Assembly (NCBI RefSeq): GCF_007830435.1
Contig: NZ_VLLC01000002.1
Location: forward strand, 183,549-247,548
Reading direction: 5' to 3'
DNA length: 64,000 bases
From: Desulfobotulus alkaliphilus
GTDB taxonomy: Bacteria; Desulfobacterota; Desulfobacteria; Desulfobacterales; ASO4-4
Shown here: positions 35,403-37,367 of the stretch, piece by piece
Numbering within the stretch: the first letter of the stretch is position 1
Layout: each line of letters opens with the position of its first letter
Notes under the pieces: generated by a model
Databases searched by the model: none
What the model was told of the DNA's origin: nothing
Seen by the model: the letters and a program-made list of their open reading frames with translations, nothing else
Position numbers and translations under genes: made by a program

Positions 35403-36200
35403 TCAGCTGAGATATTGATTCATGGCTGTTGTGGTATTCAGGCCATCATTGACTATACCGTGCAGGGCGCGGAGCAGGGCCGTGGGATTTTCGTGCTGAA
35501 ACACGTTTCTCCCAAGGGAAAGGCCTGCGGCGCCTGCCTGCATGGCATCAAAGGCCATCTGCAGAATCTGTGCATCATTTTCCATTTTGGGGCCTCCGGC
35601 AATAACTACGGGAATGCAGCACCCGTCCACCACCTGGCGGAAGGTTTCCGGGCTGCCCGTATAGGCCACCTTCACCACGTCTGCGCCCAGTTCTTCTCCT
35701 AAGCGGGCGCAGTGCTTGACCACATCCACATGGTTTTCATCGGCAATGCGGGGGCCTCTGGCATAGACCATGGCAAGAACGGGCATGCCCCATTCATTGG
35801 CCCTTGTGCTGACTTCACCGAAGTCCCTGAGCATGGCCCTTTCGTTTTCATCCCCCACATTGACATGGACGGATACGGCATCGGCCCCTAAGCGCAGGCC
35901 GTCTTCTACCGTGGCCACAAGGGTTTTGGTGTTGGAAAAGGGAGAAAGGCTGGTACTTGCGGAAAGATGGAGGATGAGGCCGATGTCCCGGCCATGGCCC
36001 CTGTGGGTGCGGCGGGGAAGACCCTTGTGCATGAGAACGGCATTGGCGCCGCCTTCTGCCACTTTATCCACGGCTCCCCTGAGATCTATCATTCCGGGGA
36101 TGGGACCGACGGTGACCCCGTGGTCCATGGGTACAATGATGGTTTTTTTTGTGTTGCGGTCAAAAATCCGTTCCAGTCGAACCTGTTTGCCAAGCTGCAT
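35403..36200 (-). CDS. 2-amino-3,7-dideoxy-D-threo-hept-6-ulosonate synthase (ADH synthase, aroA')
   Basis: Cytosolic class-I aldolase-fold enzyme of 265 aa. In the archaeal-type route it condenses a deoxyketohexose phosphate with aspartate semialdehyde, feeding dehydroquinate synthesis without DAHP. ATG 36200 has AAAGGAG upstream; the longer frame is rejected. Asp26 (VPMDHG), Tyr146 (AMVYARG) and Lys177 (VVKVAYTG, Schiff base) are all offset by seven from the catalytic residues of the Methanocaldococcus enzyme as I recall them. No aroB'-type DHQ synthase II is adjacent. Upstream is a Phe-rich leader peptide and attenuator, fitting end-product control by aromatic amino acids. Confidence 0.9.
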
Positions 36201-36246: not shown

Positions 36247-36282
36247 AAAAAAAGGACCACCAGCGTGATGCCTGCGGTCCTT
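36247..36282 (-). terminator. Attenuator terminator before ADH synthase
   Basis: On the minus strand AAGGACC and GGTCCTT form a stem with inner CAG/CTG pairs, followed by TTTTTTT. It lies between the leader peptide stop (36310) and the gene start (36200), so it would stop transcription before the gene. Confidence 0.8.
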
Positions 36283-36342
36283 GAAAGTTTCGGGATGGAT
36301 GCTTTTTTTTCAGGCCATTCCACCTTCACAAGAACCCCAGGC
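36270..36342 (-). promoter_or_regulatory. Antiterminator pairing in the ADH synthase leader
   Basis: Leader bases GCCTGGGGTTCTT (36342-36330) can pair with AAGGACCGCAGGC (36282-36270), which is the 5' arm of the terminator: 11 Watson-Crick pairs plus a G-U. The first segment lies inside the leader codons just after the Phe run. A ribosome stalled on Phe/Tyr codons would leave it free to block the terminator. Confidence 0.72.
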
Positions 36343-36408
36343 GCAGCTAAAGCCGCCAAAAAAGTTCTTAAAGTAAAAAAAGAAGGTATGGAAAGGGTTC
36401 ATGCTCAT
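36310..36408 (-). CDS. Phe/Tyr-rich leader peptide of the ADH synthase attenuator
   Basis: A 32-codon frame with eight Phe, one Tyr and one Trp, concentrated as [15 protein letters not shown], then CAWGSC and stop at 36310. Composition and position match the leader peptides of pheA and pheST attenuators in enterobacteria. The start is ATG 36408, or ATG 36402 two codons later. The first coincides with the predicted transcript start, so translation may be leaderless or begin at the second. The peptide itself probably has no function beyond sensing charged Phe/Tyr tRNA. Confidence 0.78.
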
Positions 36409-36414
36409 GTCCAG

Positions 36415-36443
36415 CTTATCGGATAAAAAGAAATCTTTGTCAA
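36415..36443 (-). promoter_or_regulatory. Candidate promoter of the ADH synthase leader transcript
   Basis: Minus strand TTGACA (36443-36438) and GATAAG (36420-36415) are separated by 17 bases. The -35 is perfect; the -10 matches four of six. Confidence 0.6.
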
Positions 36444-36503: not shown

Positions 36504-37367
36504 TTAAAAAACGTAGAAGTAGCGAAGGCCGAACTGATGGGTAAGAAAGCCGTTTTCAACCTCAATATCCCGCCTGTACTGGGTGAGGAGCTGATGTTTG
36601 GGTGCCAGCCGGAAACCAAGGGTAAGCTGCATGGCATGGGTTTCGGTTTCATTGTCCAGCTTATTGCCAGCGAGCTCTGTTTCTCCGCCCTTGAAATAGT
36701 AATGGCTTAAGGCCATCATGAATGATGAGGTCAGATCATAGGATACATGTGAAGCAAGGCCGAAAAGGGGATCTTTAGCTTCTTTCTGGCCTCCTTTGTT
36801 ATTGTTGTCCGTATAGAACTCAATGCTGGGGACCAGATCGAAGTAAAGGGGGCCAAAACCTTTGGTGATGGAGGCTTCAGTTTTAAATGCCCAGCGGTTA
36901 TCACCTAAGTTAATAGGTCTGTATGCATCATAGTCGCCTAGGGGAGCTTTAATCCACTGGGCTAAGGCTATCCAGAGCTGATTTTCCCGGTTGTTTACAG
37001 GCCATACGCCAAGAATTAAGGTTGGGTCGAAAAGCCCGGAGGTTGAAAGGGGTCCTGCTTGAAGGTTGCCAAAGGGAAGCAGGGCCTGAACGGAAGTGGT
37101 AATCCCGGCAATTTCTTTATAGTAAACGGGACGGATGATCTGTACGTTCATGTCAAGATTTTCTGTGTCGTCTTTTTTTCCATTATCATAGCTTTCGTTA
37201 CTCGTTCTGTGCCGGGAATAGACCAGTATACCTGTGGTGCCGTCCGGTGCGGCAATATACCCCCTTGCATCCCCTCCTGCCATGGATGCCGCAGGCAGAC
37301 AAAGGCTCAGGGTAAGCAATAAAAGAAAGGGCAGGTGGCGGGTTGCAAAAAAAGAAGATTTGTTCAT
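36504..37367 (-). CDS. Outer-membrane channel-like protein (phenol MetA/SphA-type)
   Basis: Exported beta-barrel of 287 aa. A signal peptide (FLLLLTLSLCLPAASMAGG) is followed by GYIAAPDGTTGILVYSRHRT, then alternating strands such as QIIRPVYYKEIAGITTSVQA and DPTLILGVWPVNNRENQLWI, ending in an aromatic strand (HQFGLRYFYVF). This matches the MetA-pathway outer-membrane family often annotated as a transporter of aromatic or hydrophobic compounds. AAAGGAA lies upstream of the start. The neighbour downstream is the aromatic-pathway attenuator, but a functional link is not shown. Confidence 0.78.
   Translation of the reverse strand: MNKSSFFATRHLPFLLLLTLSLCLPAASMAGGDARGYIAAPDGTTGILVYSRHRTSNESYDNGKKDDTENLDMNVQIIRPVYYKEIAGITTSVQALLPFGNLQAGPLSTSGLFDPTLILGVWPVNNRENQLWIALAQWIKAPLGDYDAYRPINLGDNRWAFKTEASITKGFGPLYFDLVPSIEFYTDNNNKGGQKEAKDPLFGLASHVSYDLTSSFMMALSHYYFKGGETELAGNKLDNETETHAMQLTLGFRLAPKHQLLTQYRRDIEVENGFLTHQFGLRYFYVF

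Follow-up and report, generated by a model that had tools for sequence, protein, structure and literature searches.

A phenylalanine-codon leader and a predicted transcription attenuator before an ADH synthase gene of Desulfobotulus alkaliphilus, with variants in related genomes

How is entry into aromatic biosynthesis controlled where the archaeal-type enzyme ADH synthase takes the first step? The question is raised by a gene for this enzyme in a stretch of 64,000 nucleotides from Desulfobotulus alkaliphilus (the window), since a short Phe-rich ORF and a terminator-like hairpin lie directly upstream of it. The assignment of the enzyme is firm on sequence grounds, as had been claimed when the locus was first noticed; the product scores 369.2 bits against the ADH synthase model TIGR01949 (cut-off 299.45) and 395 bits against PRK07226. 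The gene stands alone, the next gene encoding a chemotaxis receptor, and its start at 36200 is preceded by AAGGAG. Further upstream is a 287-aa ORF (36504-37367, minus strand) with no NCBIfam family match at E 0.001. The promoter box, the aromatic leader and the terminator with its seven T described in the original prediction all read as stated on the minus strand, and are listed with the other features in Table 1. The terminator hairpin consists of AAGGACCGCAGGC-ATCAC-GCTGGTGGTCCTT and ends 46 nt before the ATG of the gene. Generic scans missed both signals, the promoter because the rule demands T at the last base of the -10 box and the terminator because of a strict stem and loop rule. The fold z-score of the 5' region is -2.64.

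Table 1. Features of the ADH synthase locus, in window positions
Feature	Positions	Strand	Basis or remark
-35 box TTGACA	36438..36443	-	sequence reading
-10-like hexamer GATAAG, 17-nt spacer from TTGACA	36415..36420	-	sequence reading
Leader ORF, 32 codons (8 Phe, 1 Tyr, 1 Trp)	36310..36408	-	conserved in the sister genomes G001 and G002
Alternative in-frame ATG of the leader	36402	-	
Putative control codons FFFYFKNFF (leader codons 9-17)	36358..36384	-	sequence; modelled P(terminator) 0.00 with A site on codons 10-18
Segment 1, AAGAACUUU; partner 36338-36330 of segment 2 if ribosome-free	36361..36369	-	MFE fold
Segment 2, GCCUGGGGUUCUU; predicted antiterminator 5' strand, within leader ORF	36330..36342	-	duplex with segment 3
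Segment 3, AAGGACCGCAGGC; common to predicted antiterminator and terminator	36270..36282	-	
Intrinsic terminator, 3:4 hairpin and seven U	36247..36282	-	-17.7 kcal/mol
ADH synthase (2-amino-3,7-dideoxy-D-threo-hept-6-ulosonate synthase, AroA'), putatively controlled gene	35403..36200	-	TIGR01949, PRK07226

The leader is exceptional within the window. Among 1098 ORFs of 10-75 aa on both strands it alone reaches 8 aromatics per 12 residues; twelve ORFs, the leader included, reach at least 6, and just one of the others has a U-tailed hairpin downstream, a weak one. From its codons it is mainly a candidate Phe sensor, with one Tyr codon.

Three sets of related genomes supplied ADH synthase loci: named genomes, represented by the best 80 among 264 relatives; the window's own family, with three genomes; and 297 genomes drawn from its phylum, 158 of them with a match at E 1e-30. 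Many of these 158 matches, at 29-38% identity, were left out; the draw gave 29 new loci and 60 more fetched by place, with matches taken down to ~240 bits among the matches listed. Second copies of the gene were added before the distinct loci were counted. A fixed rule called a leader where at least 4 aromatics fall within 14 residues, the stop codon lies 35-220 nt before the gene, and a U-tailed hairpin below -12 kcal/mol starts no more than 110 nt after the stop. By this rule a leader and terminator are present at 146 of 210 loci and no call is made at 64; the controls gave 5/210 (shuffled), 1/210 (reverse strand) and 0/210 (in-gene stretches). The alignment of leaders across relatives proposed with the original prediction is in this way answered by leaders and terminators at most of the ADH synthase loci examined. 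Scored by aromatic content, the best small ORF in the 300 nt upstream has at least 6 aromatics in 12 residues at 119/171 loci, vs 30/1710 shuffles and 0/171 reverse strands. A U-tailed terminator hairpin follows in 110 of 117 distinct loci with such a score. It also follows in 17 of the 51 loci that score lower, several of which prove on reading to carry true leaders.

Some loci were treated separately in these counts. L001 and L002 (duplicates of the window genome's own loci) and L091 and L096 (upstream DNA identical to that of L028 and L059) were left out, L091 and L096 being still inside the 171-locus set and the 148-leader set used for folding below. Loci too near a contig end were also left out, 4 from the aromatic-score count and 2 from the fixed-rule count. 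L012 was called automatically in the wrong frame; its true tail is DFFNNSGGCFFGLFIFIRICGLDGMR, and it was corrected by hand only in the Phe-share pairing and in the register and context counts. L026 has a leader-like frame and failed the U-tail rule, while L053 has one and failed the aromatic rule. Tree labels derive from a stricter first rule, under which the true leaders L026, L049, L066, L068, L082, L167 and L168 are marked 'none'.

The core of the window leader is T-rich, and the Phe run might on that account be a low-complexity accident of a T-rich stretch. This explanation can be given almost no credence: shuffled sequences gave few leader calls, the leader has the top aromatic score of all small ORFs of the window, and Phe gives way to Tyr and Trp codons both in the second copy and among relatives. 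A chance T run was rejected as the source of the leader by the shuffle, reverse-strand and small-ORF controls.

The end of the leader ORF (segment 2) is complementary to the 5' arm of the terminator (segment 3). The pairing proposed originally, 36342-36330 with 36282-36270, holds with 11 Watson-Crick pairs and one G-U, and includes in addition a G.G mismatch that had gone unmentioned. The energy of this duplex is -24.8 kcal/mol vs a shuffled mean of -15.4, and 2 of 100 shuffles are as good. The mean energy of pairing between leader tail and terminator 5' arm is -24.1 kcal/mol over 110 loci, vs -15.0 for shuffled tails; 59 of the duplexes beat all 100 shuffles and 98 rank at 5 or fewer of 100. 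Co-ordinated change was counted in the 72 loci sharing a register, the remaining 38 of the 110 being left out; 12 loci have a differently built terminator arm. Segments 2, 3 and 4 change together at several positions. G-C-G becomes A-U-A in L013, L016, L022 and L045; U/C-G-C becomes U-A-U in the genus of the window (L083-L085); C-G-C becomes U-A-U at another position in L003-L005; and a change to U-A-U is seen at a third position in seven loci (L033, L043, L046, L051, L057, L062 and L089). The other cells of the comparison hold wobble pairs or have one side unpaired. Between lineages the competing pairing is kept through these co-ordinated base changes, and in the two sister genomes of the window (G001 and G002) the leader codons, the terminator and the competing pairing are all retained. 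Many leader peptides have 'ACGL' close to their C terminus, and this recurring sequence is probably the coding shadow of segment 2.

The effect of a ribosome on these alternatives was modelled by laying a 30-nt mask on the RNA, scanning the A site codon by codon, and folding at equilibrium. In the window the probability of the terminator is 0.68-0.86 with the A site on codons 1-9, falls to 0.00 on codons 10-18 (the Phe/Tyr run), rises to 0.28 at codon 19 and 0.74 at codon 20, and is 0.92-0.95 from codon 21 on. The modelled drop occurs because AAGAACUUU (codons 14-16) and GGGGUUCUU of segment 2 form a 1:2 hairpin that is covered by a ribosome on the Phe run. In G001 the dip is less sharp (0.05-0.58 on codons 10-18). 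When RNA behind the ribosome is allowed to pair, the zero zone of the window shrinks to codons 10-14 and the dip of G001 becomes 0.24-0.87. G002 shows no switching in the equilibrium model (0.82-0.95 at every codon) because its terminator is so stable. It does, however, carry AGGAAC and GUUCCU at the places of AAGAAC and GUUCUU in the window, a compensatory change in segments 1 and 2 by which the peptide has Arg in place of Lys, the leader being otherwise similar. The 1:2 hairpin within the aromatic run is suggested by the window fold together with this one compensatory change. A generic test of 1:2 pairing, confined to RNA ahead of the aromatic run, ranked at or below 0.05 in 54/136 loci, and above it in the window (0.44), G001 (0.68) and G002 (0.82); segment 1, which lies inside the run, is outside the reach of this test.

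Over 148 leaders, the mean equilibrium probability of the terminator is 0.76 with the ribosome mid-core vs 0.96 at the stop codon. Clean equilibrium switching was accordingly rejected as a general feature: the window shows it and G001 does so less sharply, whereas G002 and the mean of all loci do not. As the equilibrium probability stays high in G002 and in this mean, the switch there must be kinetic. Segment 3, when just transcribed, is sequestered with a mean probability of 0.77 with the ribosome mid-core vs 0.21 at the stop codon (30-nt mask). Shuffled tails sequester it at 0.58 with the ribosome mid-core, and part of the mid-core effect is therefore due to more free RNA.

The region combines a leader ORF rich in codons for a product of the pathway, an intrinsic terminator between leader and gene, an antiterminator that excludes the terminator, and a pathway gene downstream. 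The leader, the terminator, the mutually exclusive pairings with their conservation and co-ordinated change, and the link to the pathway can all be read from the sequences, and they support the earlier reading of the locus as attenuation of the pheA and pheST kind, with leaders, terminators and covarying pairing in relatives. Very probably the region is a ribosome-mediated transcription attenuator through which the supply of Phe-tRNA sets expression of the stand-alone ADH synthase. The start of transcription, translation of the leader, stalling and the response to Phe are deduced parts of this model. Polymerase would make the leader RNA, and a ribosome would begin on the leader at once. If Phe-tRNA were scarce, the ribosome would wait on codons 9-17 and cover segment 1; segment 2, left free, would pair with the emerging segment 3, the terminator would be blocked, and ADH synthase would be transcribed. 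If Phe were plentiful, the ribosome would pass through segment 2 and reach the stop codon, or would leave and allow 1:2 to form; segment 3 would then pair with segment 4, and transcription would stop at 36247.

A structured 5' region with a terminator, which the fold z-score indicates here, could also belong to a T-box, a metabolite riboswitch or the target of an RNA-binding protein, with the leader ORF incidental. Such control is very unlikely: in nine sources no match attained the gathering score of any Rfam family, the best Rfam match in this region of the window is 19.7 bits vs a threshold of 41 bits, and the element that recurs is the run of aromatic codons, with residues differing by copy.

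The promoter position bears on how the leader is translated. In 126 of the 146 leader-bearing loci an exact TTGACA occurs upstream of the aromatic run, at a distance of 25-140 nt. The first in-frame start follows it by 29-35 nt in 74/125 loci, and by exactly 31 nt in 36, a spacing at which transcription is expected to start at the ATG itself. When the in-frame start nearest to 31 nt is taken, 83 loci fall at 28-35 nt, a choice that favours this class. At a threshold of -5 kcal/mol, a Shine-Dalgarno sequence precedes 15 of these 83 leaderless-type leader starts, whereas it is present before ADH synthase itself in 80 of the 83. In 44 further loci the leader is preceded by a 5' UTR, and 33 of them have a Shine-Dalgarno sequence. 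In the window, the first leader ATG is 29 nt and the second in-frame ATG 35 nt from TTGACA, so that the transcript is predicted to start at, or a few bases from, the leader ATG. From the spacing, many leaders of relatives appear to start at the first base of the transcript. The palindrome TGACC-N3-GGTCA, a possible repressor site, is found near the promoter in 10 of the leader-bearing loci scanned (L086, L087, L088, L014, L024, L030, L036, L041, L214 and L217); these 10 include the second ADH synthase copy in all three genomes of the window genus.

This second copy is located on another contig of the window genome and is 61% identical to the window copy. It heads the gene row aroA'-aroB'-pheA-aroE-aroA-aroK/L-aroC-tyrA, and its leader, VNQSFAGSFYCYYWWYYFSIDLPAPALEQKKVK, is rich in Tyr and Trp (FYCYYWWYYF). 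No DAHP synthase was found in the 98%-complete draft, where the only PF00793 match is KDO-8-P synthase and PF01474 has none; both known entry genes of the draft thus carry leaders. The trpE gene of the same genome (L181, G000:C16) has a Trp leader, MNSQKKEKALRSLCTEKNISILWWWPVSFGHHGTG, with WWW, followed by a terminator-like hairpin by eye. Upstream of pheS, inspection by eye found no aromatic leader, and attenuation of the pheST type was not seen. Together, the Phe leader, the Tyr/Trp leader and the trpE leader would meter all three end products.

Copy number was counted in 50 named genomes. Where a single copy is present (17 genomes, at a limit of at least 50% identity), Phe, Tyr and Trp occur together in the 14-residue core in 14, for example FYFWYFYF; some of the 17 are small drafts that may be incomplete, and a second match at 40-47% identity is present in several. 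Two copies that both have leaders are present in 35 genomes, and in 30 of these (29 before the L012 correction) the Phe shares of their aromatic cores are at least 0.25 apart. The mean difference is 0.47 vs 0.34 for random pairing, a value as high being reached in 0 of 10,000 pairings, although the relatedness of the genomes overstates this evidence. By the tree and its labels, the division of residues involves several lineages: Desulfobacterales (the group of the window included), Pseudodesulfovibrio, Humidesulfovibrio and Solidesulfovibrio. The two leaders read FFFFFSF vs FYFGYWY in the Pseudodesulfovibrio group and FYFWFWF vs YYYYG in Solidesulfovibrio, while in the Humidesulfovibrio group FFFASVFFGF occurs in the sister clade of QYWYYWF copies. 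Five genomes of the Pseudodesulfovibrio group (L241, L244, L245, L246 and L247) have a third ADH synthase, at 57-60% identity, for which no leader was called, and one Halodesulfovibrio genome has two tandem ADH synthase genes (L242, G343:C145:11407-13015).

The genes downstream follow the leader residues in 82 leader-bearing loci with at least 1.6 kb of downstream sequence. Where the Phe share is below 0.5, aroB' is next in 32/32. At a share of at least 0.75 it is next in 1/18, pheA follows directly in 4, and neither gene is found in 13; intermediate shares (0.5 to <0.75) give aroB' in 25, pheA in 6 and neither in 1. In the clade around the window copy pheA follows directly in 14 loci (11 with a leader call). 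However, five second copies with Tyr-only or Tyr-rich leaders (L252-L256), which are outside these 82 loci, are exceptions: none of seven aro/phe/tyr genes was found in the 3-4 kb downstream, so that here leaders poor in Phe precede stand-alone genes and not operons. In L095 and L102, operon-type leaders are followed by two tandem hairpins, both with T runs in L102 (by eye).

These associations bear on a further alternative. The terminator might act constitutively, or be part of a trans-acting sRNA or leader peptide; ADH synthase would then be transcribed from a different promoter, and the aromatic ORF would encode an independent small protein. Trans-acting attenuator products are reported for S. 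meliloti rnTrpL/peTrpL in the accessible text of PMC7298713, and the terminators are strong, as their mean equilibrium probability with the ribosome mid-core shows. However, the peptides vary widely between lineages, yet complementarity between tail and terminator arm is kept, and an independent peptide would not explain why the residues track gene context. As for another promoter, the short interval between terminator and ATG leaves little room and the promoter scan found none there. We consider this alternative improbable. It seems rather probable, judging from the leaders, that Desulfobacterota using the ADH route tell their isozymes apart by leader codons, a single copy reading Phe, Tyr and Trp and duplicates dividing the residues (Phe vs Tyr/Trp, or mixed vs Tyr-only). 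Leader codons would then have the role that allostery and repressors have for enteric DAHP synthases, and many of the leaders would be translated on transcripts with the ATG at their 5' end.

In the E. coli pheL-pheA and pheST attenuators, a Phe leader ahead of a Phe-related gene makes transcription depend on the supply of Phe-tRNA. Both are named in PMC11802643 (accessible text). The window likewise has a Phe leader before a Phe-related gene and an attenuation reading. It differs in that the putatively controlled gene encodes the first enzyme of the ADH route, segment 2 is within the leader ORF, and the start is probably leaderless. Attenuation of C. glutamicum aroF by aroR was reportedly first studied by Neshat et al. 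in 2014. The aroR leader (Phe-Tyr-Phe) controls this DAHP synthase gene, whose expression goes up on Phe limitation (PMC11802643 and PMC4046766, accessible text). There too an aromatic leader precedes the pathway entry enzyme, but the enzyme, the pathway variant and the phylum are others, and the accessible text makes no mention of a division of residues between isozymes. In Acholeplasma, the uORFC-13-1 motif upstream of aroF is a predicted Phe uORF and terminator, known from 24 sequences with at least 1 Phe codon (PMC8632094, accessible text). It resembles the window in placing a Phe uORF and terminator before an aromatic entry enzyme, and differs in preceding a DAHP synthase and in being, in that text, a prediction only. 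For the S. meliloti trpL attenuator, the leader mRNA begins with the ATG itself (PMC7298713, accessible text). A leaderless start of this kind is suggested here for many leaders by their spacing, whereas trpL is the Trp leader of trpE(G). The entry isozymes AroF, AroG and AroH of E. coli each answer to a different aromatic end product, in part by allostery. They are also under TyrR/TrpR control (PMC11802643, accessible text). Isozymes of ADH synthase appear to be divided similarly between end products, here through the codons of leader peptides.

No description of a leader or of attenuation was found for ADH synthase, Desulfovibrio or deltaproteobacteria in the open-licence literature, in keeping with the novelty claimed for aroA'. 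The pattern now reaches beyond the single case first predicted, to a large number of relatives, to a second gene copy whose leader is rich in Tyr and Trp, and to leaders of leaderless appearance. We class the system as ribosome-mediated attenuation, of a variant form in which the leader codons seem to share out end-product sensing between the isozymes of ADH synthase. Control of archaeal-type aromatic entry in sulfate reducers is undescribed in the literature searched. The leaders would form a large set of probably leaderless peptides for studying the coupling of ribosome and polymerase from the first base. If the reading is true, leader codons in this bacterial group predict by their identity which amino acid each isozyme responds to, and duplications and re-specialisations that arose naturally can be compared.
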